Source of the DNA: a virus
Virus record (IMG/VR): IMGVR_UViG_3300032087_004734
Span: 1 to 20,223 of that record
Direction: 5' to 3' (one strand)
Length of the DNA: 20,223 nucleotides
In this document: in pieces, positions 1-20,223 of the stretch
Numbering within the stretch: the stretch's first letter is position 1
Layout of the letters: every line of letters begins with the position of its first letter
Translations under genes and position numbers: made by a program
Notes under the pieces: generated by a model
Seen by the model: only the letters and a program-made list of their open reading frames with translations
The model's database searches: none
Told to the model about the DNA's origin: nothing

Positions 1-119
1 ACTTGAACAACGAACGAAAGGGAGCTTGGACGCAAAAGTGGATGTTGCGACCCGTAGCAAACTGCTGTCGTGGTAGCAGTATCGTGCGGGTAGCGCCCGC
101 ATTCCAAAGGAGATAAAAA
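1..119 (+). other. Upstream leader/tail region with three adjacent hairpins
   Basis: No complete gene is visible before the protease start at 120. Two frames are open from the window edge: one stops at a TAG at 74-76 and the other at a TAA at 114-116. Either could be the last codons of an upstream gene (portal or core genes precede gene 21 in T4), but I recognise no family. The stretch is about 50% GC, richer than the genes after it. Three small stem-loops lie nearly end to end: TTGC/GCAA at 45-60, ACTGCT/AGCAGT at 61-80, and TGCGGG/CCCGCA at 85-101. No T-run follows the last, so it is not a standard terminator. A Shine-Dalgarno AAGGAGA follows at 107-113. Confidence 0.4.
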
Positions 120-713
120 ATGACTAAGAAATACGTACTACAAGAGTTTATGAACCTAGATTACAGCGACGATCTTCTCACAGAAGAAGAGCGTGAAGGT
201 AATCGCCAAGGGATACACCTTATTGTAGCAGGGAAGATACAGGCTGCCGGCAAAAAGAACGGCAACGGGCGTATTTACCCCCGACCAATCCTCGAAAGAG
301 AGATGAAGAACTACGAAAAGCTTGTTCGTGAGGGTCGTGCTATTGGTGAACTAGACCACCCAGACAGTTCAGTCGTAGAATTGAAGAATGCTAGCCATCT
401 AATCACACAAGTGTGGTGGGAAGGTGACGATGTCATGGGCAAAATGAAGATTTTGGATACTCCAGCGGGTCAGATCGCCAAACAACTAGTAGAAGGTGGC
501 GTTCAGTTAGGTATTTCAAGTCGTGGTCTTGGCTCAACTCGCCAACAAGGCGGAGTTACCATGGTTGAAGACGATTTCCAACTACTTTGCTTCGACTTGG
601 TATCAGAACCAAGCACAACAGGTGCCTTTTTGGTTGCTGAAAGTCAAGTTAAGACACACTTAACCAAGGCTGACCGAATCAATCGTGCCTTGAACGACAT
701 TTTGGGCGACTAA
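120..713 (+). CDS. 21: Prohead core protease (T4 gp21-like, peptidase S80 type)
   Basis: This is the serine protease that sits in the prohead core and trims scaffold, capsid and internal proteins before DNA packaging. The 197-residue length is close to T4 gp21 (about 212). Visible family signatures are GRIYPR near residue 50-55, GELDHP at 76-81 carrying the probable catalytic His80, and GISSRG at 131-136 carrying the nucleophile (Ser133 or Ser134). The C-terminal part includes FDLVSEPS, also typical. The ATG at 120 is preceded by AAGGAGA with 6-7 nt spacing. The next gene starts 2 nt after the stop, so the two are probably translationally coupled. The T4 family cuts after (L/I)-x-E before A/G/S, and several proteins in this window carry such sites. 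Family assignment is confident; the exact nucleophile is inferred. Confidence 0.93.
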   Translation: MTKKYVLQEFMNLDYSDDLLTEEEREGNRQGIHLIVAGKIQAAGKKNGNGRIYPRPILEREMKNYEKLVREGRAIGELDHPDSSVVELKNASHLITQVWWEGDDVMGKMKILDTPAGQIAKQLVEGGVQLGISSRGLGSTRQQGGVTMVEDDFQLLCFDLVSEPSTTGAFLVAESQVKTHLTKADRINRALNDILGD

Positions 714-715
714 TA

Positions 716-1732
716 ATGGCTGGCGCTGGATTTGCAGTAGATAACAACAGTGGCGGATATGCTTTTAAAGTAGATCCCGACGGAAACGTTAAAGTTGGAG
801 ACGAATCCAGTGATCTTCTAGAGATTACAGGCACCCTTAATGTAAATGGTCCTACTGTATTTAACGAAGCGGGTTCTACCACTGGAGATTTTCGTGTAGA
901 GAGCAACGCATCAGAGAATATGCTCTTTGTTGATGCAAGTTCTAATCGCATCGGTATTGGTACAGCCTCGCCACTTTTTACAATTGATGTCCAAGAACGA
1001 ACAGGTATTGAAGCCTGTCTTCGCCTAAAAGGTACTGGCGATGTTGGAATCCGACTCCAAGCTGATAGCGACGGCGCTGGGGGAGAAAATGATAATCCTT
1101 ACATAGATTTTTATCAAGACACGGCAAATTCTAACACCCGTGCTCAGAGACTAGCTTCGATCGGCATGGAAGGCGATGCAGGAGCAACCTTTACAGATTC
1201 TCTGGATAATACTTTTTTTATGGATGCGGCATATCCAACTACCCTAGGTTCCAATCTACGAACACTTCAGCTTGCTAACGATTCCAAAAACAATGGACAT
1301 AAGGCTCGCATCACACTTGAGGGAAATAATGGCTATGTCGGCATTCACACAAATGCCCCAACAACACCTCTAGAAATTGAGGGCACAACTAAATCTACAG
1401 AATATGCTACTGCTGTTGGGACACAGGACCTTGGAACTGGAACAAGCAGCACATTATCTTTAGACGCTGGTATTATGCTTTTGGACGCTGACTCCATCAA
1501 CGGAACTGATATGGGTGGCTATGAAGTTCACACCCTAAACATTCCTAACGGCTCTACAAGCGGACAAAGACTTACCATCATCGCCCAGAGCACAACAAAC
1601 AGTACAACTATTATGCCTGCTGGAAGTATTAACGGCTCCTTCGGAAGCCTTAGTGATGCTAGCGGCACAACAGCATTAGAATTCGTATGGATTTCCGAAG
1701 GCAGTATTTCAGCCTGGTATCAAGTGAGTTAA
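716..1732 (+). CDS. Fibre-like structural protein with GIG-type modules
   Basis: This 338-residue protein is rich in Gly, Ser, Thr, Asn and Asp and looks like a beta-structured trimeric fibre. It carries two copies of a short module of the form N-x-(V/I)-G-I-x(4)-P-x(3)-(L/I)-x-(V/I): around 77-91 (NRIGIGTASP) and 204-222 (GYVGIHTNAP). Similar modules occur in the protein at 2891-4462, so the two are related by domain content. The N-terminus has LEITGTLNVNG, a pattern common at the start of phage fibre proteins. The C-terminal third (about 236-338) is a separate beta-rich domain ending in EFVWISEGSISAWYQ, a typical fibre tip or capping end. Its place between protease and scaffold genes suggests a head-attached fibre or decoration, but a tail fibre cannot be excluded. 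There is only a weak ribosome site; translation probably couples to the protease stop at 711-713. Confidence 0.7.
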   Translation: MAGAGFAVDNNSGGYAFKVDPDGNVKVGDESSDLLEITGTLNVNGPTVFNEAGSTTGDFRVESNASENMLFVDASSNRIGIGTASPLFTIDVQERTGIEACLRLKGTGDVGIRLQADSDGAGGENDNPYIDFYQDTANSNTRAQRLASIGMEGDAGATFTDSLDNTFFMDAAYPTTLGSNLRTLQLANDSKNNGHKARITLEGNNGYVGIHTNAPTTPLEIEGTTKSTEYATAVGTQDLGTGTSSTLSLDAGIMLLDADSINGTDMGGYEVHTLNIPNGSTSGQRLTIIAQSTTNSTTIMPAGSINGSFGSLSDASGTTALEFVWISEGSISAWYQVS

Positions 1733-1744
1733 GAAGGGAAACAA

Positions 1745-2140
1745 ATGAAAAAATCGGAACTCAAAAATATTATTAAAGAATGTGTCCGTGAGGTAATCTT
1801 TGAAGAAGGTATGCTATCAGGCATCATCTCAGAGGTTGTACGAGGCATGGGAACAACCTTGGTACAGGAAGCTAGAACAGCACCTGTCTCACAACCATCA
1901 AAAGCCTTTTCGGAGAGCAAAAAGCAAGTTCTTGATGCTATTGGTAAGAACTCCTACGAAGATGTGAAGAAGAAGTTCTCTAACCCAGAACTTTTTGAAG
2001 GTACCCGACCTATCGCTGAATCTAAGAGCGCTAAGGGCGGAGCACTATCTGGCGTAGCACCTAGTGACCCAGGTGTAGACATTTCAAATATTCCCGGCTT
2101 TGGAAGCTGGTCTGCTGTTGCGAGCGCAACAAGAAAGTAA
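1745..2140 (+). CDS. Small protein with prohead-protease-type cleavage motifs
   Basis: I do not recognise a named family for this 131-residue protein. The N-terminus (MKKSELKNIIKECVREVIFE) is a charged amphipathic helix, resembling in style the N-terminal capsid-targeting peptides of T4 internal head proteins. The sequence contains two good matches to the T4 gp21 cleavage rule (L/I)-x-E before A/G/S: LFE|G at residues 83-86 and IAE|S at 90-93, plus the near match VQE|A at 40-43. The C-terminal part is Gly/Ser/Pro-rich and low in structure. The ATG has an AAGGGA ribosome site about 6 nt upstream. Lying between protease and scaffold genes, it may be an internal prohead core protein processed during maturation; this role is inference. 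Confidence 0.75.
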   Translation: MKKSELKNIIKECVREVIFEEGMLSGIISEVVRGMGTTLVQEARTAPVSQPSKAFSESKKQVLDAIGKNSYEDVKKKFSNPELFEGTRPIAESKSAKGGALSGVAPSDPGVDISNIPGFGSWSAVASATRK

Positions 2141-2147
2141 TTTAAAA

Positions 2148-2426
2148 ATGAGAAAAAACAAAAGAAATAAACAACTAATTGAACCTTGTGTTACCGTTCG
2201 AGCGGAAGATCATAGAGGCGATCCAGAAAGAATGATACGGAAGTTTCGCAAACTCGTAAAAAACGAAGGAATCATTGAGGAATGCCGCAGTCGAAGTTAT
2301 TTTGTATCTGAAAGTGAAATCAGAAGGCAAAGAAAAGAAGACAAACAAAGACTGATTGACAAGGTAAATAGAAGAAGAGATGAACTACTTAAGCCTAGGG
2401 ACAGGTTTATAAAGAGGAGAAAATAG
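2148..2426 (+). CDS. rpsU: Ribosomal protein bS21 homologue, phage-encoded
   Basis: The 92-residue, strongly basic product aligns by eye to bacterial bS21. Residues 15-66 follow the family pattern: VTVR near the start, then DPERMIRKFRKLVKNEGII matching the E. coli segment around ALRRFKRSCEKAGVL, then EECRSRSYFVSESEIRRQRK matching EVRRREFYEKPTTERKRAK. A further basic helix (67-92) extends past the usual 60-70 residue length. bS21 sits on the 30S platform beside the 3' end of 16S rRNA and helps translation initiation. bS21 genes are known from some marine phages, including Pelagibacter myophage HTVC008M. The ATG at 2148 is the only sensible start; an in-frame TTG at 2100 lies inside the previous gene. 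No Shine-Dalgarno sequence is visible, unlike most neighbours. Whether it enters host ribosomes is inference. Confidence 0.8.
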   Translation: MRKNKRNKQLIEPCVTVRAEDHRGDPERMIRKFRKLVKNEGIIEECRSRSYFVSESEIRRQRKEDKQRLIDKVNRRRDELLKPRDRFIKRRK

Positions 2427-2427
2427 T

Positions 2428-2871
2428 ATGGCGATTTCCCCAGATACTACGAATTATCAAATAACTTCAGGGCATCGACCTGGTCTTGCAAGTGTAGGTC
2501 AGTACCAATCAGCAGGACATCCCTATGTAACAGGGTCAGAAACACTCAATGATGGTGCGGAACATCAGATTACCTTCCCCACTGTCACTAAGTCTATAAC
2601 TGTAATTAATAGACCATCTGGATCAGGTGACGCTCCTGACATAAGAGTTCATTTTGCAGCTACAGGGAGTGGAAACGTAGTAGGAGGTCAACACTATATT
2701 CTGCTTACTTCGAACAAAGACAGTATGACAATGAATGTCAAATGTAGCCGACTTTATATTTCAAGGGATGATGCGACTGCCGGCGCTGCTTCTTATACGG
2801 TGTTTGCAGAGTGTACGGGGATTGATCCAATAGAGATGTATCCTCTAACTGGTTCTGGTATAACTGAGTAA
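2428..2871 (+). CDS. Beta-rich probable virion protein, unknown
   Basis: This 147-residue protein has no catalytic motif that I can identify. It is Gly/Ser/Thr-rich with alternating hydrophobic strands (HQITFPTVTKSITVIN; DIRVHFAATG; YILLTSNKDSMTMNVKC; ASYTVFAECTGI), suggesting a small beta-sandwich such as a head decoration or fibre-base protein. It has no signal peptide or membrane segment. The start is well supported: AGAGGAGA at 2412-2419 lies 8-9 nt before the ATG, and only one base separates it from the bS21 stop. It is followed 19 nt later by the larger fibre-like gene, so the two may be co-translated and structurally linked. Location in the head-gene cluster supports a virion role; the exact role is unknown. 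Confidence 0.65.
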   Translation: MAISPDTTNYQITSGHRPGLASVGQYQSAGHPYVTGSETLNDGAEHQITFPTVTKSITVINRPSGSGDAPDIRVHFAATGSGNVVGGQHYILLTSNKDSMTMNVKCSRLYISRDDATAGAASYTVFAECTGIDPIEMYPLTGSGITE

Positions 2872-2890
2872 ATAGAAGAGGGAGATTGTC

Positions 2891-4462
2891 ATGGGCGGAT
2901 TTAAGCCATCTAGAAGTGATATAGCAGGTAGCACAGTTGTAGGGTCAGACAAGGATGTCGATTCACATCAGTTTACTGGCTCCGTTGACATTACTGGTTC
3001 CCTTCTAATTAACGGGGTTCAAATTACACAAAACGGCGGCGGTGGCGGCGGTGGCAGCCCTGGTGGATCAAATACTCAAATACAATACAATGATGGAGGT
3101 GCTTTTGGTGGAGCCTCTTCTTTAGTTTATGATGATGTTAATAATCATGTTGGCATCGGGGTTACAGACCCAGATGTTATCTTAGAGGTTCTTGACACCT
3201 CCACACAACAAAAGTGGTCTTATGATGCAGATAGTTTTGCAACTCTGACTGTTGAAGATGATAGTAATACTACACTAGCAACTGGAGAAAACGGAAACAT
3301 AACACTTCATGCTGGACCAGCAGGCGACATTTTTCTAGTAGCAGATGGGGGACAGGTCAACCTTCAAAACCCCGCTGGAACTAATAAATTAGCATTTGAT
3401 GTTGAAAATGCAGGTGGACTAGCATATATTTCTAATGTAAGAAATAACGATTTAATCTTTAGAGTTGGCACAAATGTCAAAGAGGTCTTCCGACTTGACC
3501 AAAGCGAAGGTGCTTTGTTGATGTCTGGTAACTTTGCTGAACCAGGCGGCTTCGCCCCAATTCACTTTAGAGACACAGCAACTAGCATTCACTCACCAGG
3601 TTCTAACCGACTAGCCATAACTGCTCCAACCTTGGAAGTCACAGGGACACTGAGCGTTGAGAAAGATACTGATGCAACCGCAATTGTTGGCAGAGCTAAC
3701 GTTGGTGCAGTGCCTGGTGGCGCCTCTGATTATGCTTATTTTTCTCATATAGACCAAGCTGGTGTTAACACTTACGCTTTGGAACAAAGAGCCAACGGGA
3801 CTACCAGTGTTAATGCACCATCAGGCGGTCAGATTTATTTTCGCCTTGGTAATGTCTCAACTGCTATGATAATTGATGGTACCAGCAACAACAATATTGG
3901 CATCAATGGAACACCATCTGCAAGACTTCACGTACAGACAAATTCGCCTGAAAAAGACGTATTCCGTTGCGACGGCGACGAAGACCATATCTTGTTTGTA
4001 TCTGGATCAGGGCGTGTGGGTATTCTCTCCGCAGCCCCAGCCCAAACACTTTCAGTTAGCGGTAGCGCTGCTTTTTCTGGCACATACGGCTCAACAGCGG
4101 TTGAGACAGTAAGCACAAGCCTTAGTACACTTACAGCAACTGATGGTGTGGCTATTATTGATTTGACTTCCGCAGCAACTAACACAAGCTTTGCTTTCTT
4201 TATAAACAACGGAACATACATTGGGCAAGAAAAAATTGTTTATGTAAAAACAATTGTTGGTGCTGATGGAAACAATTCAAACGATGCTGCACTACAGGGA
4301 AGCAATATTGATAGCCCCCTTGGAAACGCAAATGGGACACTATCCCTTAGTGCGTCTGATCAAGGCGAAGGCTTTTTTGGCATGAACCGTGGAGCAGCAA
4401 GGCTTTTGTGGGATGGCACTGACTGGGCACCAATATCAGTAACAAACCTTAACTGGTCGTAG
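2891..4462 (+). CDS. Large fibre-like structural protein with Gly7 linker
   Basis: The 523-residue protein has clear fibre architecture. Residues 1-48 form an N-terminal attachment-like region with HQFTGSVDITGSLLINGVQI. Residues 49-55 are seven consecutive glycines, followed by SPGGSNTQIQYNDGGAFGG, a hinge found in many phage fibre proteins. Three copies of the GIG module follow: 84-100 (HVGIGVTDP), 333-348 (NNIGINGTP) and 373-389 (RVGILSAAP). The C-terminal 400-523 domain ends with a Trp-rich tip (LLWDGTDWAPIS). The same module occurs twice in the protein at 716-1732. The gene has a GAGGGAGA ribosome site before the ATG. Position among head genes suggests a head fibre or capsid-surface adhesin; a tail fibre placed here by rearrangement is the alternative. 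Confidence 0.75.
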   Translation: MGGFKPSRSDIAGSTVVGSDKDVDSHQFTGSVDITGSLLINGVQITQNGGGGGGGSPGGSNTQIQYNDGGAFGGASSLVYDDVNNHVGIGVTDPDVILEVLDTSTQQKWSYDADSFATLTVEDDSNTTLATGENGNITLHAGPAGDIFLVADGGQVNLQNPAGTNKLAFDVENAGGLAYISNVRNNDLIFRVGTNVKEVFRLDQSEGALLMSGNFAEPGGFAPIHFRDTATSIHSPGSNRLAITAPTLEVTGTLSVEKDTDATAIVGRANVGAVPGGASDYAYFSHIDQAGVNTYALEQRANGTTSVNAPSGGQIYFRLGNVSTAMIIDGTSNNNIGINGTPSARLHVQTNSPEKDVFRCDGDEDHILFVSGSGRVGILSAAPAQTLSVSGSAAFSGTYGSTAVETVSTSLSTLTATDGVAIIDLTSAATNTSFAFFINNGTYIGQEKIVYVKTIVGADGNNSNDAALQGSNIDSPLGNANGTLSLSASDQGEGFFGMNRGAARLLWDGTDWAPISVTNLNWS

Positions 4463-4497
4463 TAGAGAAACATTTCTAGTCGTTTACATTTTTAATC

Positions 4498-4506
4498 TAC
4501 TATTTA
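4498..4506 (+). promoter_or_regulatory. Candidate late promoter motif TACTATTTA (before scaffold)
   Basis: TACTATTTA, extended as TACTATTTATT, lies in the 81-nt gap before the scaffold gene, 37 nt upstream of its ATG. The same core recurs before five other genes or gene groups in this window. It is not the T4 late promoter TATAAATA on this strand. Assignment as a promoter rests on recurrence and position only. Confidence 0.4.
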
Positions 4507-4509
4507 TTT

Positions 4510-4527
4510 TTGATGTAATATCATCAA
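4510..4527 (+). other. Small hairpin in leader of scaffold gene
   Basis: TTGATG (4510-4515) and CATCAA (4522-4527) form a perfect 6-bp stem around the loop TAATAT, just downstream of the TACTATTTA motif and just before the AGGGG ribosome site at 4531-4535. It could protect or modulate the leader of the scaffold mRNA; there is no T-run, so it is not a terminator. Confidence 0.3.
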
Positions 4528-4543
4528 TTAAGGGGATTAATCT

Positions 4544-5524
4544 ATGTCTACTATGTTAGAACAAGCAATCGTTGACGCAAAGGCTCTTCGTGAAGCCGCT
4601 GTTAAAAGTGCTGAAGCCGCTATCGTCGAAAAATACAACGACGAAGTAAAAGATGCTGTAAGCAAACTTTTGGAACAAGATGATGAAATGGATCTTGGGA
4701 TGGATTCTGGCGCAGAGGCAGAGATTGATACTACTGCTATGGAGCAAGTCCCAATGGCTCATCTTTCAGATGAAGACGAAGACATCGTTGTCGTAGACCT
4801 TGATGACATTATTGCCGCTGCTGAGTCCGAAGAGGGCGACGAGCTTGATGAGCCTATGCTTGATAGAGAAGAGATAGCAGATGAAATTGGACTTCCTCTT
4901 GAGGACGACTTGCCTGCTAATCGTGATGACGAAATAGAAATTGAGGAAGACAGGCTAGTTGACCTATTCAAAGAAATGTTGACTGTAGACGTCCCCCAAA
5001 TTGAGCTTGACCGAGCCCAAGAGGAAATTGCAAACGAAAACAATGATAGAGTAGAGCAAGATGAAGATCCTGACTCTTTCTATACTGACGGAATGGACAA
5101 GGAAGATGTTGAAAATCTCCGCCGCTCCGAAGAACAAAACGAAAGCCTCCAGAAGGAAAATGCTGAACTCAAGCAACTTCTAGGGCAAGTAAAAGAAAAA
5201 CTACAAGAAATAAACTTGCAAAACGCAAGGTTATTATATGCGAACCGTGTGCTTGGAGATTCCTCCTTGAATGAGCAGCAAAAAGCTAAAATTGCTGAGT
5301 TAGTTTCTGGAGCACGTTCGGTAGAAGAAGCGAAGATGGTCTATGAGACTCTTCAAAAGACAATGGCGGGTATTCAAAAGAGCGCCCCACAATCGTTGTC
5401 TGAAGCTGTAACTAAGAGATCATCTGTCATTCTTAGTGGGAATCGTACAGAGGAACGCACTACCGAATCCAGTCCAACATATAGTCGTTGGGCAACTCTC
5501 GCAGCAATAAACAAGACAAAATAA
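4544..5524 (+). CDS. 22: Prohead core scaffold protein (T4 gp22-like)
   Basis: This 326-residue, very acidic, helix-rich protein directly precedes the major capsid gene, as gene 22 does in T4. It forms the inner core on which the capsid shell assembles and is then destroyed by the prohead protease. The N-terminus (MLEQAIVDAKALREAAVKSA) is typical of gp22 proteins of marine T4-like phages. Residues 50-180 are dominated by Asp and Glu, and 190-230 form a clear coiled coil (RRSEEQNESLQKENAELKQL). Two canonical protease sites are visible: LRE|A at 15-18 and LSE|A at 285-288. The C-terminus ends RWATLAAINK, likely the conserved tail of the family. An AGGGG ribosome site at 4531-4535 fits the ATG. 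Assignment rests on composition, sites and synteny. Confidence 0.88.
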   Translation: MSTMLEQAIVDAKALREAAVKSAEAAIVEKYNDEVKDAVSKLLEQDDEMDLGMDSGAEAEIDTTAMEQVPMAHLSDEDEDIVVVDLDDIIAAAESEEGDELDEPMLDREEIADEIGLPLEDDLPANRDDEIEIEEDRLVDLFKEMLTVDVPQIELDRAQEEIANENNDRVEQDEDPDSFYTDGMDKEDVENLRRSEEQNESLQKENAELKQLLGQVKEKLQEINLQNARLLYANRVLGDSSLNEQQKAKIAELVSGARSVEEAKMVYETLQKTMAGIQKSAPQSLSEAVTKRSSVILSGNRTEERTTESSPTYSRWATLAAINKTK

Positions 5525-5544
5525 TATTTTAAGGAGAAATAAAA

Positions 5545-7296
5545 ATGTCTGTAATTAACACACTCACCGAAGGCATTAGACAACGCTCTCTTGCCAATGA
5601 AGGTGAAGCTCTTCTTGAGAAGTGGCAGAAGACTGGACTCCTCGAAGGACTTGACGACCACAAAGCTGGTTCGATGGCTCGCCTTCTTGAGAACCAAGCC
5701 GCTCAGCTTCTTAAGGAACAATCTACAATGGCTGCCGGCGATGTCGAAGGTTTTGCCTCTGTTGCTTTCCCAATCGTTCGTCGTGTATTCGGCAACCTTA
5801 TCGCACAAGACCTAGTCTCAGTGCAACCAATGTCTCTACCAAGTGGACTCATTTTCTTCCTTGACTTTGTGTTCTCTGTTGATGGTGGCATGGTTGATCC
5901 AACAGACGGCACCGACGGCTTCCGCCTAGGTCAGAGACAAGACACCTCTGTTTACGGTGGTGGCAAAGTTGGTTCTGGCATCATTGATGGCGTCGATCTA
6001 GGTGGCAACAACGGTCAGCTTTCTGCTTACAGCTTGAATAACGGCTACTCTAGTCCAACAGGCTCTCAGACAGGTGTCGTTGAAGTTCTCGCCTCTGGTA
6101 CTTTCGGCGACGTAGCTTCTATTCACGACTGGGCCGACGTTCTTCACAGTGATCCAGTATTTACCTCTGGTACATCTGGTTACCTCGTTGGTAAAATTCC
6201 AACACCTTCTAGCCTTAACAAGGATGACTTGGTAGCTGTTACCTTGTCTAGTTCTCTTGGTAACGCTGGTCTATTTGACGGCGGCGCTCGAAGCTGTTTC
6301 CAAGTACGTCGCTTGACACAGTTCTCTGGTACAGCCGAAGACCACCTACTAGTTGTTTTGGCTCAGCCAACAATAGCTACTGCTGATGACGCACACACAA
6401 TTCTTAGTGCTGCTGCCGGTGAGGTTGGTTCTAGCACCTTCCCAATTGTTGATGGCTTCAACAACGGCGGCGCTATTGGTTCTATAGTTGGTGAGGCAAC
6501 TTGGGGTCTTGAAGCCCAAGCCGGCATCCCAGAAATCGACATCAAGGTTGATTCTACTGCCGTAACAGCTATCACCAAGAAGCTTAAGGCTAAGTGGTCT
6601 CCAGAGCTAGCTCAAGACTTGAATGCTTACCACAACCTCGACGCTGAAGTTGAGTTGACAAGCATCCTTTCTGAGCAAGTTGCTCTTGAAATCGACCAAG
6701 AAATCCTTGAAGATCTCGTCAAGGGTGCTACCGCTGGTACATTGTACTGGTCTCGCAGCCCAGGTAAGTTCCTCAACCGTGAAACAGGTCGTCGTCTTGT
6801 CGGCACCACATACCCTGACTTCACAGGTACTGTCTCCGAATGGTACGAAACACTTCTTGAAACAGTCAACGAAGTAAGTGCTCGTATTCACCGTAAGACA
6901 CTTCGTGGCGGCGCAAACTTTGTTGTTTGCTCTCCAGAAATGGCTAACATTCTTGAATTCACAAGCGGCTTCCGTGCCAACGTCAACGTTGATGCTGACG
7001 GCTCTTGGGGTGCTATGAATGTCGGTTCTATTAGCCGTAAGATGGACATTATTGTCGATCCTTACTTTACCCGTAACTTGCTCCTTGTCGGTCGTAAGGG
7101 CTCTAGCTTCCTCGAAAGTGGATATGTTTACGCTCCTTACGTCCCACTACAAGTCACACCAACCATCTTTGGTACAGAAGATTTCGTGCCCCGCAAGGGC
7201 GTCATGACTCGCTATGCCAAGAAGATGGTGCGTCCTGACATGTACGGACTAGTTATTTGTCAAGATTTGGTCTCTAACGTCGATCATGCGTCGTAA
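5545..7296 (+). CDS. 23: Major capsid protein (T4 gp23-like, HK97 fold)
   Basis: This is the main shell protein. The stretch FPIVRRVFGNLIAQDLVSVQ (residues 75-94) followed by PMSLPSG matches the conserved T4 gp23 region around VRRAIPNLIAFDICGVQPMN. The N-terminus carries GSMARLLENQAAQLLKE (42-58), typical of gp23-like proteins, and this propeptide is removed by the protease. At 583 residues it is longer than T4 gp23 (521), with a Gly-rich insertion after about residue 115. Possible cleavage sites are LTE|G (7-10) and LLE|G (32-35); neither lies where the T4 cut would align. The ribosome site AAGGAGA is strong. Codon choice is more C-ending than in nearby genes, as expected for a highly expressed gene. 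A terminator follows 52 nt after the stop. Confidence 0.95.
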   Translation: MSVINTLTEGIRQRSLANEGEALLEKWQKTGLLEGLDDHKAGSMARLLENQAAQLLKEQSTMAAGDVEGFASVAFPIVRRVFGNLIAQDLVSVQPMSLPSGLIFFLDFVFSVDGGMVDPTDGTDGFRLGQRQDTSVYGGGKVGSGIIDGVDLGGNNGQLSAYSLNNGYSSPTGSQTGVVEVLASGTFGDVASIHDWADVLHSDPVFTSGTSGYLVGKIPTPSSLNKDDLVAVTLSSSLGNAGLFDGGARSCFQVRRLTQFSGTAEDHLLVVLAQPTIATADDAHTILSAAAGEVGSSTFPIVDGFNNGGAIGSIVGEATWGLEAQAGIPEIDIKVDSTAVTAITKKLKAKWSPELAQDLNAYHNLDAEVELTSILSEQVALEIDQEILEDLVKGATAGTLYWSRSPGKFLNRETGRRLVGTTYPDFTGTVSEWYETLLETVNEVSARIHRKTLRGGANFVVCSPEMANILEFTSGFRANVNVDADGSWGAMNVGSISRKMDIIVDPYFTRNLLLVGRKGSSFLESGYVYAPYVPLQVTPTIFGTEDFVPRKGVMTRYAKKMVRPDMYGLVICQDLVSNVDHAS

Positions 7297-7348
7297 GAAT
7301 CGGTAAGTCGATGACATAATCTTTGTTCGAATGAATAAAGATATAGGG

Positions 7349-7377
7349 AACCCCGTCCTTGTGGCGGGGTTTTCTTA
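7349..7377 (+). terminator. Rho-independent terminator after major capsid gene
   Basis: AACCCCG (7349-7355) pairs with CGGGGTT (7365-7371) around a 9-nt loop, followed by a T-rich tail TTTTCTT overlapping the stem end. This is the only clear intrinsic terminator in the window and separates the head transcript from the neck genes. Confidence 0.85.
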
Positions 7378-7404
7378 TTAGTGGGATAAAATAAGAAAGT
7401 CTAA

Positions 7405-7415
7405 AACTATTTATA
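7405..7415 (+). promoter_or_regulatory. Candidate late promoter motif AACTATTTATA (before neck genes)
   Basis: AACTATTTATA matches the TACTATTTA core with one difference at the first base. It lies downstream of the capsid terminator and 17 nt before the ATG at 7433, where a fresh promoter for the neck genes would be expected. The ribosome site GAGG is at 7422-7425. Confidence 0.4.
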
Positions 7416-7432
7416 CAAAGCGAGGAAGTTAG

Positions 7433-8683
7433 ATGCCAACTAATCTACAACCAGTTAGCACCACAAGTGCTGTTGTTCTGCCTTCGACAGGGACCCACTC
7501 CGATGTAGAGTCTGCTTTGTCTTATGGTGTGTATACCACAGATGCATTCATTAGTGGTGCAGTAGATCAAGTATCTTATACCTACAATAAGTTAGGTGGT
7601 AGAGTTCTTGATTTAGAAATAACACCAGAAATAGTTTATAATGCATATGAAGAAGCGTGCTTAGAGTATTCTTACTTGGTAAACACACACCAAGCTAAGA
7701 ATGTCCTTTCTGACATGCTAGGTAACACTACAGGGTCTTTTGACCAGGACGGTGAGTTTACTGAATATGCTAATGGCACAGATGTAAAGCCAAATTTGAA
7801 ATTTCCTCGTTTTCAGCTTGGGTATGCCACCCATGTTGGGCGTGGGAGTAGCGTCCATGCCGGCATAGGTGCATCACAAACAGTTTATTCTGCTTCTTTT
7901 GTTCCTCGAAACGACGTTCAAGACTATGATCTTCAGGCAATCATATATTCTGCCTCATTAGAAGCAGATTCACCATTCCAAGATGCCGTAGGCAGAAGTG
8001 CAATAACAATACAGAGAGTGTACTATCGGACACCACAGACAATGTGGAGCTTTTTTGGAGGATATTCCATAGGGGCAGTTGGCAACCTGTCAACTTATGG
8101 GATGTATGCGGATGATAGTGCATTTCAGCTAGTACCAGCATGGCAAAATGTCCTACAGGCTTATGCTTTTGAAGAAGACATGAATGTCCGTGCATCACAT
8201 TACTCTTTTAGGATCAATAATAATAAACTAAGAATTTTCCCAACCCCTGACGGACTAAATCCCGATAGATTTTGGGTAGACTTTAGAGTATCTGAAGACG
8301 CTTTCCAGGAAGAGTTTGATAGAAAATATGGTGCTGATGGTGTTAATAATATGAATACACTTCCATTTCCAAATGTACCATATAAAAATATCAATAGCAT
8401 TGGCAAGCAGTGGATTAGAAGATTCGCTCTATCTCTATCTAAAGAAACTCTGGGACAAGTTCGTTCAAAGTTGGCTAGTATACCAATACCTGGAAACGAG
8501 GTAACCCTAAACGGACCATCTTTAATATCAGAAGCAAAAGACGAGCAAAATGCTCTCAGGGATGAATTGAAGACTGTTCTTGATGAGATGGCTTATGGTG
8601 CCCTCATGGAAGGTGATGCACAATTGCAAAACAACTTGTCTGAAGTAATCAAACATGTGCCAACTGGCATATACGTAGGATAA
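7433..8683 (+). CDS. 13: Neck / head-tail connector protein (gp13-like)
   Basis: The 416-residue protein is the first of three neck genes between capsid and sheath. The segment LDLEITPEIVYNAYEEACLE (about 60-79) is a helical motif of the sort seen in head-tail adaptor proteins. Near the C-terminus, LGQVRSKLASIPIPGNEVTL followed by NG resembles the end of gp13-type neck proteins of marine T4-like phages, followed by a charged helix (EAKDEQNALRDELKTVLDEM). T4 gp13 is shorter (309). It would bind the portal ring after packaging and prepare the head for tail joining. The start has a GAGGAAG ribosome site. The next gene begins 4 nt after the stop. The neck role is well supported by context; the exact T4 equivalence is recalled from family patterns. 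Confidence 0.7.
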   Translation: MPTNLQPVSTTSAVVLPSTGTHSDVESALSYGVYTTDAFISGAVDQVSYTYNKLGGRVLDLEITPEIVYNAYEEACLEYSYLVNTHQAKNVLSDMLGNTTGSFDQDGEFTEYANGTDVKPNLKFPRFQLGYATHVGRGSSVHAGIGASQTVYSASFVPRNDVQDYDLQAIIYSASLEADSPFQDAVGRSAITIQRVYYRTPQTMWSFFGGYSIGAVGNLSTYGMYADDSAFQLVPAWQNVLQAYAFEEDMNVRASHYSFRINNNKLRIFPTPDGLNPDRFWVDFRVSEDAFQEEFDRKYGADGVNNMNTLPFPNVPYKNINSIGKQWIRRFALSLSKETLGQVRSKLASIPIPGNEVTLNGPSLISEAKDEQNALRDELKTVLDEMAYGALMEGDAQLQNNLSEVIKHVPTGIYVG

Positions 8684-10205: not shown

Positions 10206-13200
10206 ATGGCTGATAACTCTTCCAGAAAATTTAAGTTTATATCACCTGGTGTCTTCATTAAGGAGATCGACAACTCAGAGCTTCCTGCTGTACCAGCAGA
10301 AGTTGGTCCTCTTCTAATAGGAAGAGCCAGGAAAGGTCCGGCTAACAAGCCAGTTCAAATAACCTCATACTCTGACTTCGTTCAGACTTTTGGTAACCCA
10401 TCTGCTGGTAATGAAGGTGGTGATGTTTGGCGTGTTGGTGATTTTAATGCTCCAACCTATGCTCCTTTTGCAGCAAAAGCGTGGCTTGCTAGCAGCAATC
10501 CAATTACTTATATCAGAGCGCTTGGTGATGAGTCAGAAGGATATACTGCTGCAACTGGTCGAGCCGGGTGGAACCTAGATGCTACACAAGGGACGTCTTT
10601 AGCTCAAGGTGGTGCCTATGGTCTTCTTGTTTTCCCAAGTGGCAGTGGAACTGAGAATTTGACTGGTACTCTTGCAGCACAGTTTTACTGCCAAGACAGC
10701 CGAGTTCTTTTGTCGGGTAGTGTTAGAGGTACTGATAATGGCGGTTCGTTTGGTTCTACCCTGATTGATTTGGGTACAAACCTAGATAGCATTCCTTTGG
10801 TGTTTACTGGTAGCGATATGAACCATAAAGAGTTTGTTAGTTTTAACGAAAGCAAACCAAATTATATTCGTAGGGTTCTCAATACAGACCCAACAGTCAC
10901 AAACAGTACAATTACAAACAGTGAAACTCAAACATTTTATCAAGGCGGAAAGTACTTTCTTGGAGAAACATACGAGAACCGTATTGGTGAGGGTTCTTCT
11001 ACATCACTAGGTCTTTTGAATGTTGGCGGTGGTGTTAGTAAATATTATGGTGCCATTGTTCCAATGGTAACTAAAACTGCTGCTACAACATTTACTAACG
11101 ATCAGGCTAATTTCTTGGGCGCAGCAAGAAAAGCATCTACAGGATGGTTCTTCTCTCAAGACCTCGGATCAAACCCAGCCGCATACGCACACAAGAACAT
11201 GCAGAGGTTGTTCCGTATTGAAGCATTAACCGCTGGTGAAAACTTCAATAGAGATGTAAAGATTTCTATCGCAAACATTAAAGCAGGCAGAGGAGACTTC
11301 CAACCTTATGGCAGCTTCTCTCTTCTAGTTCGTTCCTTGAATGACACTGATAACAATCAAGTTATCTTGGAAAGATATGACAACTTGAACTTGAATCCTG
11401 CTTCTCCAAATTATATCGCTGCTCGAATTGGTGATAAATATCAAGTCTATTCTCAGGCAGAGAAGAGATCCACAGAATACGGTGAATTTGAAAATAGATC
11501 AAATTATATTAGAGTTGTAATGGATCCTGATATCGCTGCTGGTATTGGTGAGACTAGGTTGCTACCTTTTGGTGTTTTTGGACCACCTAAATATCGAGAC
11601 GTAACAATTACCTCTGGTTCAACAGGTTTGCAAAATCTTGCTTCAATACCCGATGGAGACCCAGTAACAGCGGCAGGTCCACTTTCTGCTCTAACCATGA
11701 TTGCTCCTGGCGCTTCAGCATCTTTTGGCGCTGACGGTCACGATATTCAAGATAAAGGAACATATGTTGCTGCACCTCTTCTTATGAGATATGCTGATGA
11801 TCGAGCCAGAGGGGATGTTCTTACAACTAAATTTACAGGTTCAATTAAATTCCCAGCACCTGTTTGCAGAGCCAGTTCTTTACAAGGTTCTCCAAGGTCT
11901 CTAGATAACACATTCTGGGGTGTCTGGACTGGTAAAGCCTGGAACAACGCTCAATATAATCATGAGATGTCTGACTATCTTAGACCAAGAAACTTTGACG
12001 CATCTAGCGAGTCTTCTGTTTATGATCCAGCACAGGATGTTGATGGTGAGACCACAAATAGTGGCTCTAGCCCTCTTGTTCTTTCATACGCATTCTCTCT
12101 TGATGATGTTGCTGGAACTCTCAATGGCACCGCACTTAGCGGCGCTGCTACTTGGGCCAGCGGTAACAGAGCCGGCTCAACTAGTATTAGTGCAAACTAC
12201 AGCTACACTGGCACACTAGATGCAGGTATAGATAGGTTCACCACAGTTCTTGCTGGTGGGTCTGATGGCTATAATAAAACTGAGCGTGATCCATTTGCAA
12301 ACAAAGATATGGATGGGAAAACAGAACAAACATCTTATGGGTTGTTCTCCCTACGCAAGGCTGTAAACATTGCATCTGATCCCGAAGTGGTCCAGATGAA
12401 TGCAATATCAATTCCAGGCGTTTGGGCTCCAGGAGTAACAAATTATGTTCTTGACACAGCAGAGTCAAGAGGTGATGCTCTTGCAGTGGTTGATTTGCAG
12501 TACGGCTGGACTCCTCAAGCCGAAACAAATGACGATCCAGTTACAGCAAACGCAGGAAACACTCCAAAAGCTGCTGCTGATGCTCTTGCTAATAGAAGCA
12601 TAAACAACAGTTACGGTGCTGCATACTATCCATGGGTACGCATCTATGATGATAACTCAGATAGATCTTTGTGGGCTCCACCTAGCGTCGCAGCTTTGGG
12701 TGTTCTATCTAACACAGATAGGCTTCGTGCCCCATGGTTCGCTCCCGCTGGATTCACCAGAGGTGGGCTTTCTGAGGGTGCTGCTGGTATTCCTGTTACA
12801 GATGTAACTCGTCGCTTGACTTCTGACGATAGAGACTTGTTGTATGACAACAACATTAACCCTATCGCCAAGTTCCCTGCTGAAGGAATTGTTGTTTTCG
12901 GTCAAAAGACCTTACAACAGACAGCATCAGCCCTTGATCGAATCAATGTTCGTCGCTTGATGATCTACTTGAAGCGTGAAATTTCATTCATCGCCTCAAG
13001 ACTATTGTTCGGTCCAAATACCTCAGTAACCTGGGATACCTTCAAGGGGCAGGCTCTTCCAATCCTTAGAGATGTGAAGACAGATTTTGGTATTGAAGAC
13101 TTCAAGTTGATTTTGGACGAATCTACCACTACGCCTGACTTGGTTGACAGAAACATAATCTATGCTAAGTTGCTAGTAAAACCAACTCGTGCAGTTGAGT

Positions 13201-13253
13201 ACTTTGCTATTGACTTCGTAGTCACAAATAGTGGAGCATCTTTCGAGGATTAA
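10206..13253 (+). CDS. 18: Tail sheath protein (T4 gp18-like), enlarged
   Basis: This is the contractile sheath subunit. The N-terminal motif FISPGVFIKEIDNS (about 11-24) followed by VPAEVGPLLIGRARKGP is the standard start of T4-like sheath proteins. The C-terminal domain (about 890-1015) carries RINVRRLMIYLKREISFIAS, then FGIEDFKLILDESTTTPDLV and VKPTRAVEYFAIDFVVTN, all typical of the conserved core that holds the sheath on the tube. At 1015 residues it is much longer than T4 gp18 (659); the surplus lies in the middle, where sheath proteins carry surface-exposed insertion domains. The GAGGAG ribosome site at 10189-10194 supports the ATG. The tube gene follows, as in T4. Identification is confident; the insertion boundaries are estimated. 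Confidence 0.95.
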   Translation: MADNSSRKFKFISPGVFIKEIDNSELPAVPAEVGPLLIGRARKGPANKPVQITSYSDFVQTFGNPSAGNEGGDVWRVGDFNAPTYAPFAAKAWLASSNPITYIRALGDESEGYTAATGRAGWNLDATQGTSLAQGGAYGLLVFPSGSGTENLTGTLAAQFYCQDSRVLLSGSVRGTDNGGSFGSTLIDLGTNLDSIPLVFTGSDMNHKEFVSFNESKPNYIRRVLNTDPTVTNSTITNSETQTFYQGGKYFLGETYENRIGEGSSTSLGLLNVGGGVSKYYGAIVPMVTKTAATTFTNDQANFLGAARKASTGWFFSQDLGSNPAAYAHKNMQRLFRIEALTAGENFNRDVKISIANIKAGRGDFQPYGSFSLLVRSLNDTDNNQVILERYDNLNLNPASPNYIAARIGDKYQVYSQAEKRSTEYGEFENRSNYIRVVMDPDIAAGIGETRLLPFGVFGPPKYRDVTITSGSTGLQNLASIPDGDPVTAAGPLSALTMIAPGASASFGADGHDIQDKGTYVAAPLLMRYADDRARGDVLTTKFTGSIKFPAPVCRASSLQGSPRSLDNTFWGVWTGKAWNNAQYNHEMSDYLRPRNFDASSESSVYDPAQDVDGETTNSGSSPLVLSYAFSLDDVAGTLNGTALSGAATWASGNRAGSTSISANYSYTGTLDAGIDRFTTVLAGGSDGYNKTERDPFANKDMDGKTEQTSYGLFSLRKAVNIASDPEVVQMNAISIPGVWAPGVTNYVLDTAESRGDALAVVDLQYGWTPQAETNDDPVTANAGNTPKAAADALANRSINNSYGAAYYPWVRIYDDNSDRSLWAPPSVAALGVLSNTDRLRAPWFAPAGFTRGGLSEGAAGIPVTDVTRRLTSDDRDLLYDNNINPIAKFPAEGIVVFGQKTLQQTASALDRINVRRLMIYLKREISFIASRLLFGPNTSVTWDTFKGQALPILRDVKTDFGIEDFKLILDESTTTPDLVDRNIIYAKLLVKPTRAVEYFAIDFVVTNSGASFED

Positions 13254-18891: not shown

Positions 18892-20223
18892 ATGACTACA
18901 CCTCCAGTCAAGGACGATAAATATTGGAATAATGGAGAGGGTATTCATGACCCCGAAAATCCATATAATAGTCAAGACAACCTACCAGGATCCGACAATT
19001 ACGATCGGGAACTGGCTGCGATTGATGCTAACATAAGAAGACTAAGAAAGGACTTAAAAACAAGTCCTGCTAAAGAAGCAGCAGCATTAACTAAAGCTAT
19101 CCAAGCATTCGAAAAAAACGCTTACACTCGCCGCCAAGAAAGAGCGGGAAAAGAGACAGATTTACAAAGAAAAAAGAGAGAAAGAGCAGAATTCGAGGAT
19201 TCACCTTCTCGCCGCCGTGAAAGAGCGGTTCAGGCACAAAAAGATTTTCGAGATCTTAGTGATGAAAAGAGACTTCAATATTTTGATTCCTTGGTGCCAC
19301 TAGCGGGTGGTTATGTTAGGGACAAGAAAAATAATCTTTATTATGCGCTTGTCTATAAATCAGATCCAAACAGAATGTCTCCCAGAATTGAAATGTCTGA
19401 GGATGACACTGATAAACTATTAAAAGCAATTGTTAAGGCATTAAGCAGTGAAGGGGCGGATTTATACAAGCTTTTTAAAACAGGCGAATGGCCTGGTAGA
19501 TACGATGGCGACGGTCTTTACCGCACCACAGAACAAAATAGTAAAGCCCAGGTTCAGGTTGCCGAGGAGTCTCAAAAAGCAACACAAGAGCCACCTCCGC
19601 AATTACCAAAGTATATTCAGAACATACAAGCTCTTCTTATCAATGATATTGATACTATCTCTGAGAATTTTAGAAGATTTGATGCTAAGAACGGCGGAGT
19701 AAATAGTAAAGATATTTTAGCACTTGATAATCAATTTGAAGCAGGTGCTTTTATGAACAGAATGTCTGGATTTGCGACTCCTCACGGAATGATGTCTAGT
19801 TTCATACATGCAACACCAGCGCAGCTTAGTCTTTTGGTGCCAACAATGCGATTTTTCATGGTTGATTCTGAGGGCAAAGAAGAGGAAATATATTTTAGCG
19901 ATTATGGTGATGCAGAGCACATAAAGAAGATGGCGAAAATAAGACGTGATGGTTCAATTTATGAGTTTTTTGGTTCCAAGGCACAAAAAGGCGCACAAGC
20001 TGGAATAAGCAGTTTCGAATGGTCCATAAATACACTACACGAAGGACACTTCACATTTGACGCAACTTTAGACCTTTATTTTGGCTCTTTGGCTGAGTTA
20101 GCAAATAAAAATTATTTACAGTTTATATTCCCAACAGGACTTGAGGAACCCGAAGCACTTAAAGTTCAGGACCCGTACAGAAAACAATTTAGAGAAGCCG
20201 CAGGCGAAACGCCACGAGAAAAA
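18892..20223 (+). CDS. Large baseplate-region protein, unknown, cut by window end
   Basis: The frame is open from ATG 18892 through the last base, giving 444 residues without a stop; the true gene is longer. GAGGA at 18882-18886 precedes the start; an ATG at 18888 is in another frame. Residues 38-125 are a strongly charged, Arg/Lys/Glu-rich helical region with an internal repeat (TRRQERA at 79-85 and RRRERA at 107-112). Residues 225-245 are a Pro/Gln-rich linker. The rest (about 280-415) is folded and includes TPAQLSLLVPTMRFFMVDSE and FEWSINTLHEGHFTFDATLD, patterns I have seen in large myophage baseplate proteins without a firm name. It follows the gp53-like gene by 9 nt, so a hub or wedge role is likely. 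Confidence 0.75.
   Translation, partial: MTTPPVKDDKYWNNGEGIHDPENPYNSQDNLPGSDNYDRELAAIDANIRRLRKDLKTSPAKEAAALTKAIQAFEKNAYTRRQERAGKETDLQRKKRERAEFEDSPSRRRERAVQAQKDFRDLSDEKRLQYFDSLVPLAGGYVRDKKNNLYYALVYKSDPNRMSPRIEMSEDDTDKLLKAIVKALSSEGADLYKLFKTGEWPGRYDGDGLYRTTEQNSKAQVQVAEESQKATQEPPPQLPKYIQNIQALLINDIDTISENFRRFDAKNGGVNSKDILALDNQFEAGAFMNRMSGFATPHGMMSSFIHATPAQLSLLVPTMRFFMVDSEGKEEEIYFSDYGDAEHIKKMAKIRRDGSIYEFFGSKAQKGAQAGISSFEWSINTLHEGHFTFDATLDLYFGSLAELANKNYLQFIFPTGLEEPEALKVQDPYRKQFREAAGETPREK
19127..19228 (+). repeat. Imperfect in-frame 21-bp direct repeat
   Basis: Positions 19127-19147 and 19208-19228 are 21-bp copies, both starting CTCGCCGCC and ending GAAAGAGCGG, identical at 19 of 21 bases. They are 81 nt (27 codons) apart and encode matching Arg/Glu-rich segments in the charged helix of the terminal protein. 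Confidence 0.6.

Follow-up and report, generated by a model that had tools for sequence, protein, structure and literature searches.

The head-gene operon of a T4-like myovirus contains an intact gene for a homologue of ribosomal protein bS21, and we consider it likely that the phage protein enters the host 30S subunit late in infection and keeps initiation going on virion messages. The gene lies in a window of 20,223 bases (the whole stretch of DNA analyzed here), all of which recurs base for base within the 88-kb contig G001. Its reading frame was where the original prediction had placed it, running on the plus strand from an ATG at 2148 to a TAG at 2424-2426 and encoding 92 amino acids. In the proposed sequence of events, bS21 would be made from the head operon late in infection, the phage protein would take a place in the host 30S subunit next to the 16S rRNA 3′ end, either in exchange for host bS21 or in addition to it, and initiation would thereby be sustained on the abundant phage messages for virion proteins.

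The identity of the product, predicted from its residue pattern, was borne out by family searches. Pfam PF01165 (Ribosomal_S21) matched residues 23-68 with 35.9 bits (cut-off, 27 bits; E = 6e-9), and the protein also passed the curated cut-off of TIGR00030 (33.3 against 28.95 bits) and matched PHROG 21469, "ribosomal protein S21" (E = 1.1e-4). In a phmmer search of PDB sequences the top match was a chloroplast bS21 (E = 4.5e-5), with chloroplast and bacterial bS21 proteins nearest, and a profile built from 33 phage homologues found the bS21 chains of many bacteria among PDB sequences (best E = 4.2e-12). Every one of the 33 aligned phage homologues matched PF01165, which is a measure of consistency since they had been collected with PF01165 itself or with the window protein. 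Of four pairs compared with relatives, two had saturated dS; in the remaining two the dN/dS of bS21 was 0.09 and 0.11. Uniform membership of the family and the low dN/dS of the two unsaturated pairs together exclude a chance match, and the frame is confirmed as a true bS21 homologue that is intact and under purifying selection. A short TTG frame on the opposite strand (2175-2348) was unsupported and was rejected.

The predicted model of the protein (pLDDT of 81) has bS21-like helices at residues 26-40, 42-50, and 55-81. Foldseek returned a single, weak match in the PDB, a bS21 chain of Bacillus subtilis (E = 6.3; Z = 2.9; rmsd of 2.5 over 51 residues); the absence of a strong match says little, because the protein is short and helical. 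An extra basic helix at the C-terminus had been proposed, which the alignment with the 71-residue enterobacterial bS21 contradicts, as helix 55-81 falls mostly within the normal protein and the basic C-terminal stretch is already present in the full-length form. The window protein is longer by about 13 residues N-terminally and by a basic tail of 11 residues, with low model confidence in the tail from about residue 82. A tail resembling ELLKPRDR occurs in seven of the eight members of the window clade; the remaining 25 phage bS21 proteins in the alignment lack it. In many lineage members outside the clade, the alignment shows little or no N-terminal extension.

Protease, g2, g3, bS21, g5, g6, a putative scaffold gene, and the gp23 capsid gene follow one another in this order on one strand (Table 1), so that bS21 is the third gene after the protease and the fourth before the capsid gene. 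Its predicted location among head genes is supported by the Pfam matches to an S77 prohead protease before it and a gp23 capsid protein after it. For the neighbor that had been named as the scaffold, the position just before gp23 holds, but neither Pfam nor PHROGs gave a family match. In G001, terminase and portal genes lie ahead of the protease. Spacing around bS21 is tight, with seven bases between g3 and bS21 and a single base between bS21 and g5, whose Shine-Dalgarno (SD) motif AGGAG falls within the final bS21 codons.

Several neighboring genes have features of their own. In the alignment, g3 has a conserved start (MKKSEL...IKECxKEVxFEEG) and end (GALxGxDPxDPGVDIS). Its conserved [IL]xE-E/D-G near the N-terminus resembles a prohead-protease site, and g3 may be a processed head protein. 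Between the protease and capsid genes, g2 and g6 have fibre-like repeats of the type GIGTASP in common and may encode head-decorating fibres. The tail sheath gene (10206-13253) is very long (1,015 amino acids), with the sheath C-terminal domain at its end, and a long open reading frame at 18892-20223 continues past the end of the window, reaching 1,085 amino acids in G001 (38775-42032).

Table 1 Genes of the head operon in the window
Feature	Position	Strand	Evidence
Prohead protease (Peptidase_S77)	120..713	+	PF03420, E = 5.6e-28
g2, no confident family; between protease and g3, recognized in some relatives only	716..1732	+	Pfam, PHROGs
g3, conserved, no family match, precedes bS21	1745..2140	+	Pfam, PHROGs, alignment
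Phage bS21 (rpsU-like); S21 domain spanning residues 23-68, N-terminus longer by about 13 residues, 11-residue basic tail	2148..2426	+	Pfam, TIGR00030, phmmer, model
g5, immediately 3′ of bS21	2428..2871	+	
g6, no family match, recognized in some relatives only	2891..4462	+	Pfam, PHROGs
Putative scaffold, named by its position before gp23, no family match	4544..5524	+	Pfam, PHROGs
gp23-type major capsid protein	5545..7296	+	PF07068, E = 7.9e-69

Conservation of this arrangement was followed in the best 80 contigs from a capsid-protein search, which were taken as loci. PF01165 was found in 28 of 50 and 6 of 34 records (84 in all), corresponding to 30 of the best 80 capsid-found contigs. Within these 80, bS21 was upstream of the capsid gene and on the same strand in 30 of 30 cases, at distances of 1.3 to 14 kb. 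Where a contig extended 10 kb or more upstream of the capsid gene, bS21 was always present (19 of 19); with 5 kb or more it was present on 25 of 30. All 25 loci with a recognized protease also had bS21. The window and L002 do not differ at any of 20,223 bases and count as a single sequence, and L003 and L004, which share the same bS21 identity and upstream sequence, are not independent either. The next recognized gene before bS21 was g3 at 29 of 30 loci, with the 30th contig beginning at bS21; gene order in relatives was read with the window genes as queries, and other small genes may intervene. Presence on every sufficiently long contig and at every protease locus, along with the adjacency to g3, indicates that bS21 behaves like part of the lineage's core gene set. 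A bolder reading is that it belongs permanently to the head operon as a core gene, as opposed to an optional auxiliary one, and that together with g3 it forms a module linking head assembly to the composition of the ribosome or of the virion, bS21 being packaged in the head or having its amount set through coupling to g3 translation; we regard this as unlikely. One relative (L008) contains tandem capsid genes at 5396-7123 and 7210-7608, each with an SD motif, the second being cut by the contig end.

Late expression had been predicted from the position of the gene. The T4-type late promoter TATAAATA was absent from the plus strand of the window, and its one match on the minus strand is at about chance level. 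Sigma-70-like sites in positions 1-7400 numbered 15 against a mean of 10.8 (standard deviation of 3.4), little above chance. Late timing is thus taken from the neighboring genes only. That the protein serves bulk translation late in infection is plausible, and such a role has been published, with transcription data, for other phages (PMC9723584).

In order to describe translation signals, an SD motif was defined as a duplex of -4.5 kcal/mol or better. Such motifs preceded 12 of 17 genes in the window, 11 of 17 in Microcystis phage Mel-JY01, and none of 16 head-region genes in Flavobacterium phage immuto. With a simple gene caller, the SD fraction was 0.57, 0.57, and 0.54 in G001, G002, and G048 against 0.27, 0.30, and 0.23 in shuffled sequences, and 0.03 against 0.00 in 50 kb of immuto. 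In two huge phages the fraction near bS21 was 0.20 and 0.05 (shuffles, 0.16 and 0.02); the bS21 of these two is 58-61% identical to a flavobacterial bS21. Among the capsid matches listed for the lineage, all 83 scored starts (85 matches, less two whose 5′ end was cut by the contig) had an SD motif (shuffles, 13%), and the motifs were very strong. At the start of bS21 itself, a motif was found in 0 of 10 rows of the window clade (8 distinct) and in 15 of 19 other lineage members (shuffles, 24%), with 29 starts scored, 1 of 30 loci unscorable, and some starts outside the clade looking wrong (internal Met). Since the clade has no SD motif here and the start lies just after the g3 stop, bS21 translation is probably coupled to that of g3.

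The original prediction also held that a phage bS21 could retune initiation toward phage messages. Retuning through SD selection is not supported, since SD motifs are similarly frequent on replication and virion genes in G001 (5 of 6 and 15 of 19, respectively) and G002 (4 of 5 and 13 of 17), the picture being less clear in G048 (4 of 8 and 12 of 16), although another feature of the message might still allow retuning; these are small numbers, from a split made by homology to pelagiphage HTVC008M and immuto with GroEL counted as early and the first ATG taken as the start. At the column of Flavobacterium johnsoniae Tyr54, taken from the Flavobacteriaceae bS21 L127, none of the 33 phage bS21 proteins has an aromatic residue; the window protein has Arg68, and L087 has a His two columns on. 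SD-rich genes combined with the lack of a Tyr54-type aromatic suggest that the host probably uses SD signals in the normal way and that bS21 need not unmask them.

Much of the original prediction has precedent, and its main ideas are largely already published (PMC9723584). Chen et al. 2022 describe freshwater Bacteroidetes phages in which bS21 neighbors terminase, portal, protease, and capsid genes, report that in lake phages it is transcribed with late genes, describe preferential translation of phage messages, and propose that the protein substitutes in the ribosome late, with packaging in the particle as a possibility (PMC9723584). According to the same source, 310 of the 900 bS21 phage genomes published have a prohead protease no more than 10 genes from bS21, so that proximity to head genes is not unusual. 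Like those phages, the window and its relatives are myoviral with bS21 within a few genes of the protease and capsid genes. They differ in strand, as bS21 is reversed in the phages of Chen et al. and on the capsid strand in the window and in 30 of 30 relatives (best 80 contigs), and in residue 54, which is aromatic there and not here. Bacteroidetes, the hosts in that study, usually lack SD motifs (PMC9723584), whereas the present lineage is rich in them.

Other phages show how far the arrangement varies. Mel-JY01 (PP395634.1) has nearly the same order on one strand, with protease, one protein, RpsU, three proteins, and capsid, but its bS21 has 75 amino acids, is 28% identical to that of the window, and lacks the long tail. 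Its protein upstream of RpsU had no convincing link to g3 (hhalign probability of 2%), and a literature search on Mel-JY01 found no paper. Immuto (MW353176) has a related gp23 and a similar order of head genes, but no annotated bS21 in the head cluster. HTVC008M, like the window phage, is a marine T4-like phage with bS21, but its protein is 67 amino acids long and 23% identical, and its gene has CobS and Hsp20 nearby and the capsid gene about 16 kb away, which shows that linkage to head genes is not universal among phages. S21 has been termed core to pelagimyophages (PMC7029224). Among ribosomal proteins of uncultivated viral genomes, bS21 dominates (88%), and E. coli 70S ribosomes take up the bS21 of a pelagiphage (PMC6375957, Mizuno et al. 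2019). Ribosomes purified with the tagged pelagiphage protein were about 5% active (PMC6375957), so no benefit is apparent even there.

One scan of genome contigs for a cellular relative of the window bS21 gave a single hit, itself on a phage contig in a Flavobacteriaceae metagenome-assembled genome (MAG). Assignment of a host from cellular bS21 was dropped; some 50 alignable residues and a small number of cellular sequences are also too little for a bS21 phylogeny. The MAG's own bS21 is separate from the phage contig and has the Tyr54-type residue. The phage contig L123 (PAAD01000063.1), binned in a Flavobacteriaceae MAG, has the order protease, g3, bS21, g5.

Alternative roles for the protein differ in whether it changes the choice of message, the supply of bS21, or the virion. 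A bS21 without a Tyr54-type residue might unmask the anti-SD of an SD-blind, Bacteroidia-like host and so favor SD-rich late messages. This would fit the uniform lack of an aromatic residue at that column, the very strong SD motifs of the capsid genes, the location of one relative (L128) in a Flavobacteriaceae MAG, and the reported three- and fivefold increases in translation of a strong-SD message when F. johnsoniae bS21 carries Y54A or is truncated (PMC9976891). However, SD motifs are present on the replication genes too (G001 and G002, less clearly G048), the MAG contig is a phage contig that may be misbinned, and immuto, which does infect Flavobacterium, has neither SD-bearing genes nor an annotated bS21 in its head region. 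We therefore rejected this as the main account and consider it very improbable. If message choice is unchanged, the phage could instead simply supply extra bS21, which may be limiting or lost once host synthesis stops, which would accord with the ordinary core domain and with SD motifs being alike in replication and virion genes. The clade-specific N-terminal extension and the ELLKPRDR-type tail suggest more than supply, and a pure dosage effect appears doubtful.

The gene's position in the head operon and its fixed neighbor g3 would also suit a protein that is packaged in the head with the DNA, delivered at injection, and active from the start of infection, as has been proposed to be possible (PMC9723584). 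"Virion proteome" was absent among the matches listed in a literature search. Packaged internal head proteins of the T4 type have an N-terminal targeting peptide with the protease site [LI]xE. Such a conserved peptide was not found in the bS21 clade, where [LI]xE, read off the alignment, stands just before the PC/G-V motif of the N-terminal extension in only two of eight members, although this is the T4 motif and other routes into the head are possible. The extension is also short or missing in many other members of the lineage. Packaging finds no support in the sequence and seems rather improbable. Tight pairing with g3 could further indicate an RNA- or DNA-binding basic protein recruited with g3 to head assembly outside the ribosome, but selection has conserved the S21 domain, which gives no sign of drifting out of its family, and such a role is quite improbable. 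Entry of the late-made protein into the host 30S subunit remains the reading we prefer.

The present data add a broad lineage in which bS21 accompanies SD-bearing genes and is present on 19 of the 19 contigs (best 80) with at least 10 kb upstream. This combination suggests that phages gain from bS21 in other hosts than SD-blind Bacteroidetes, and that the gain does not lie mainly in SD unmasking. Should entry into the ribosome be demonstrated, the lineage would offer a naturally occurring example of viral change to ribosome composition in favor of late messages. In the 349-kb Vibrio phage 2.275.O (L122), genes annotated as IF-3, bS21, and an L7/L12- or ClpS-like protein lie side by side at 31702-32933, a possible translation-initiation module.
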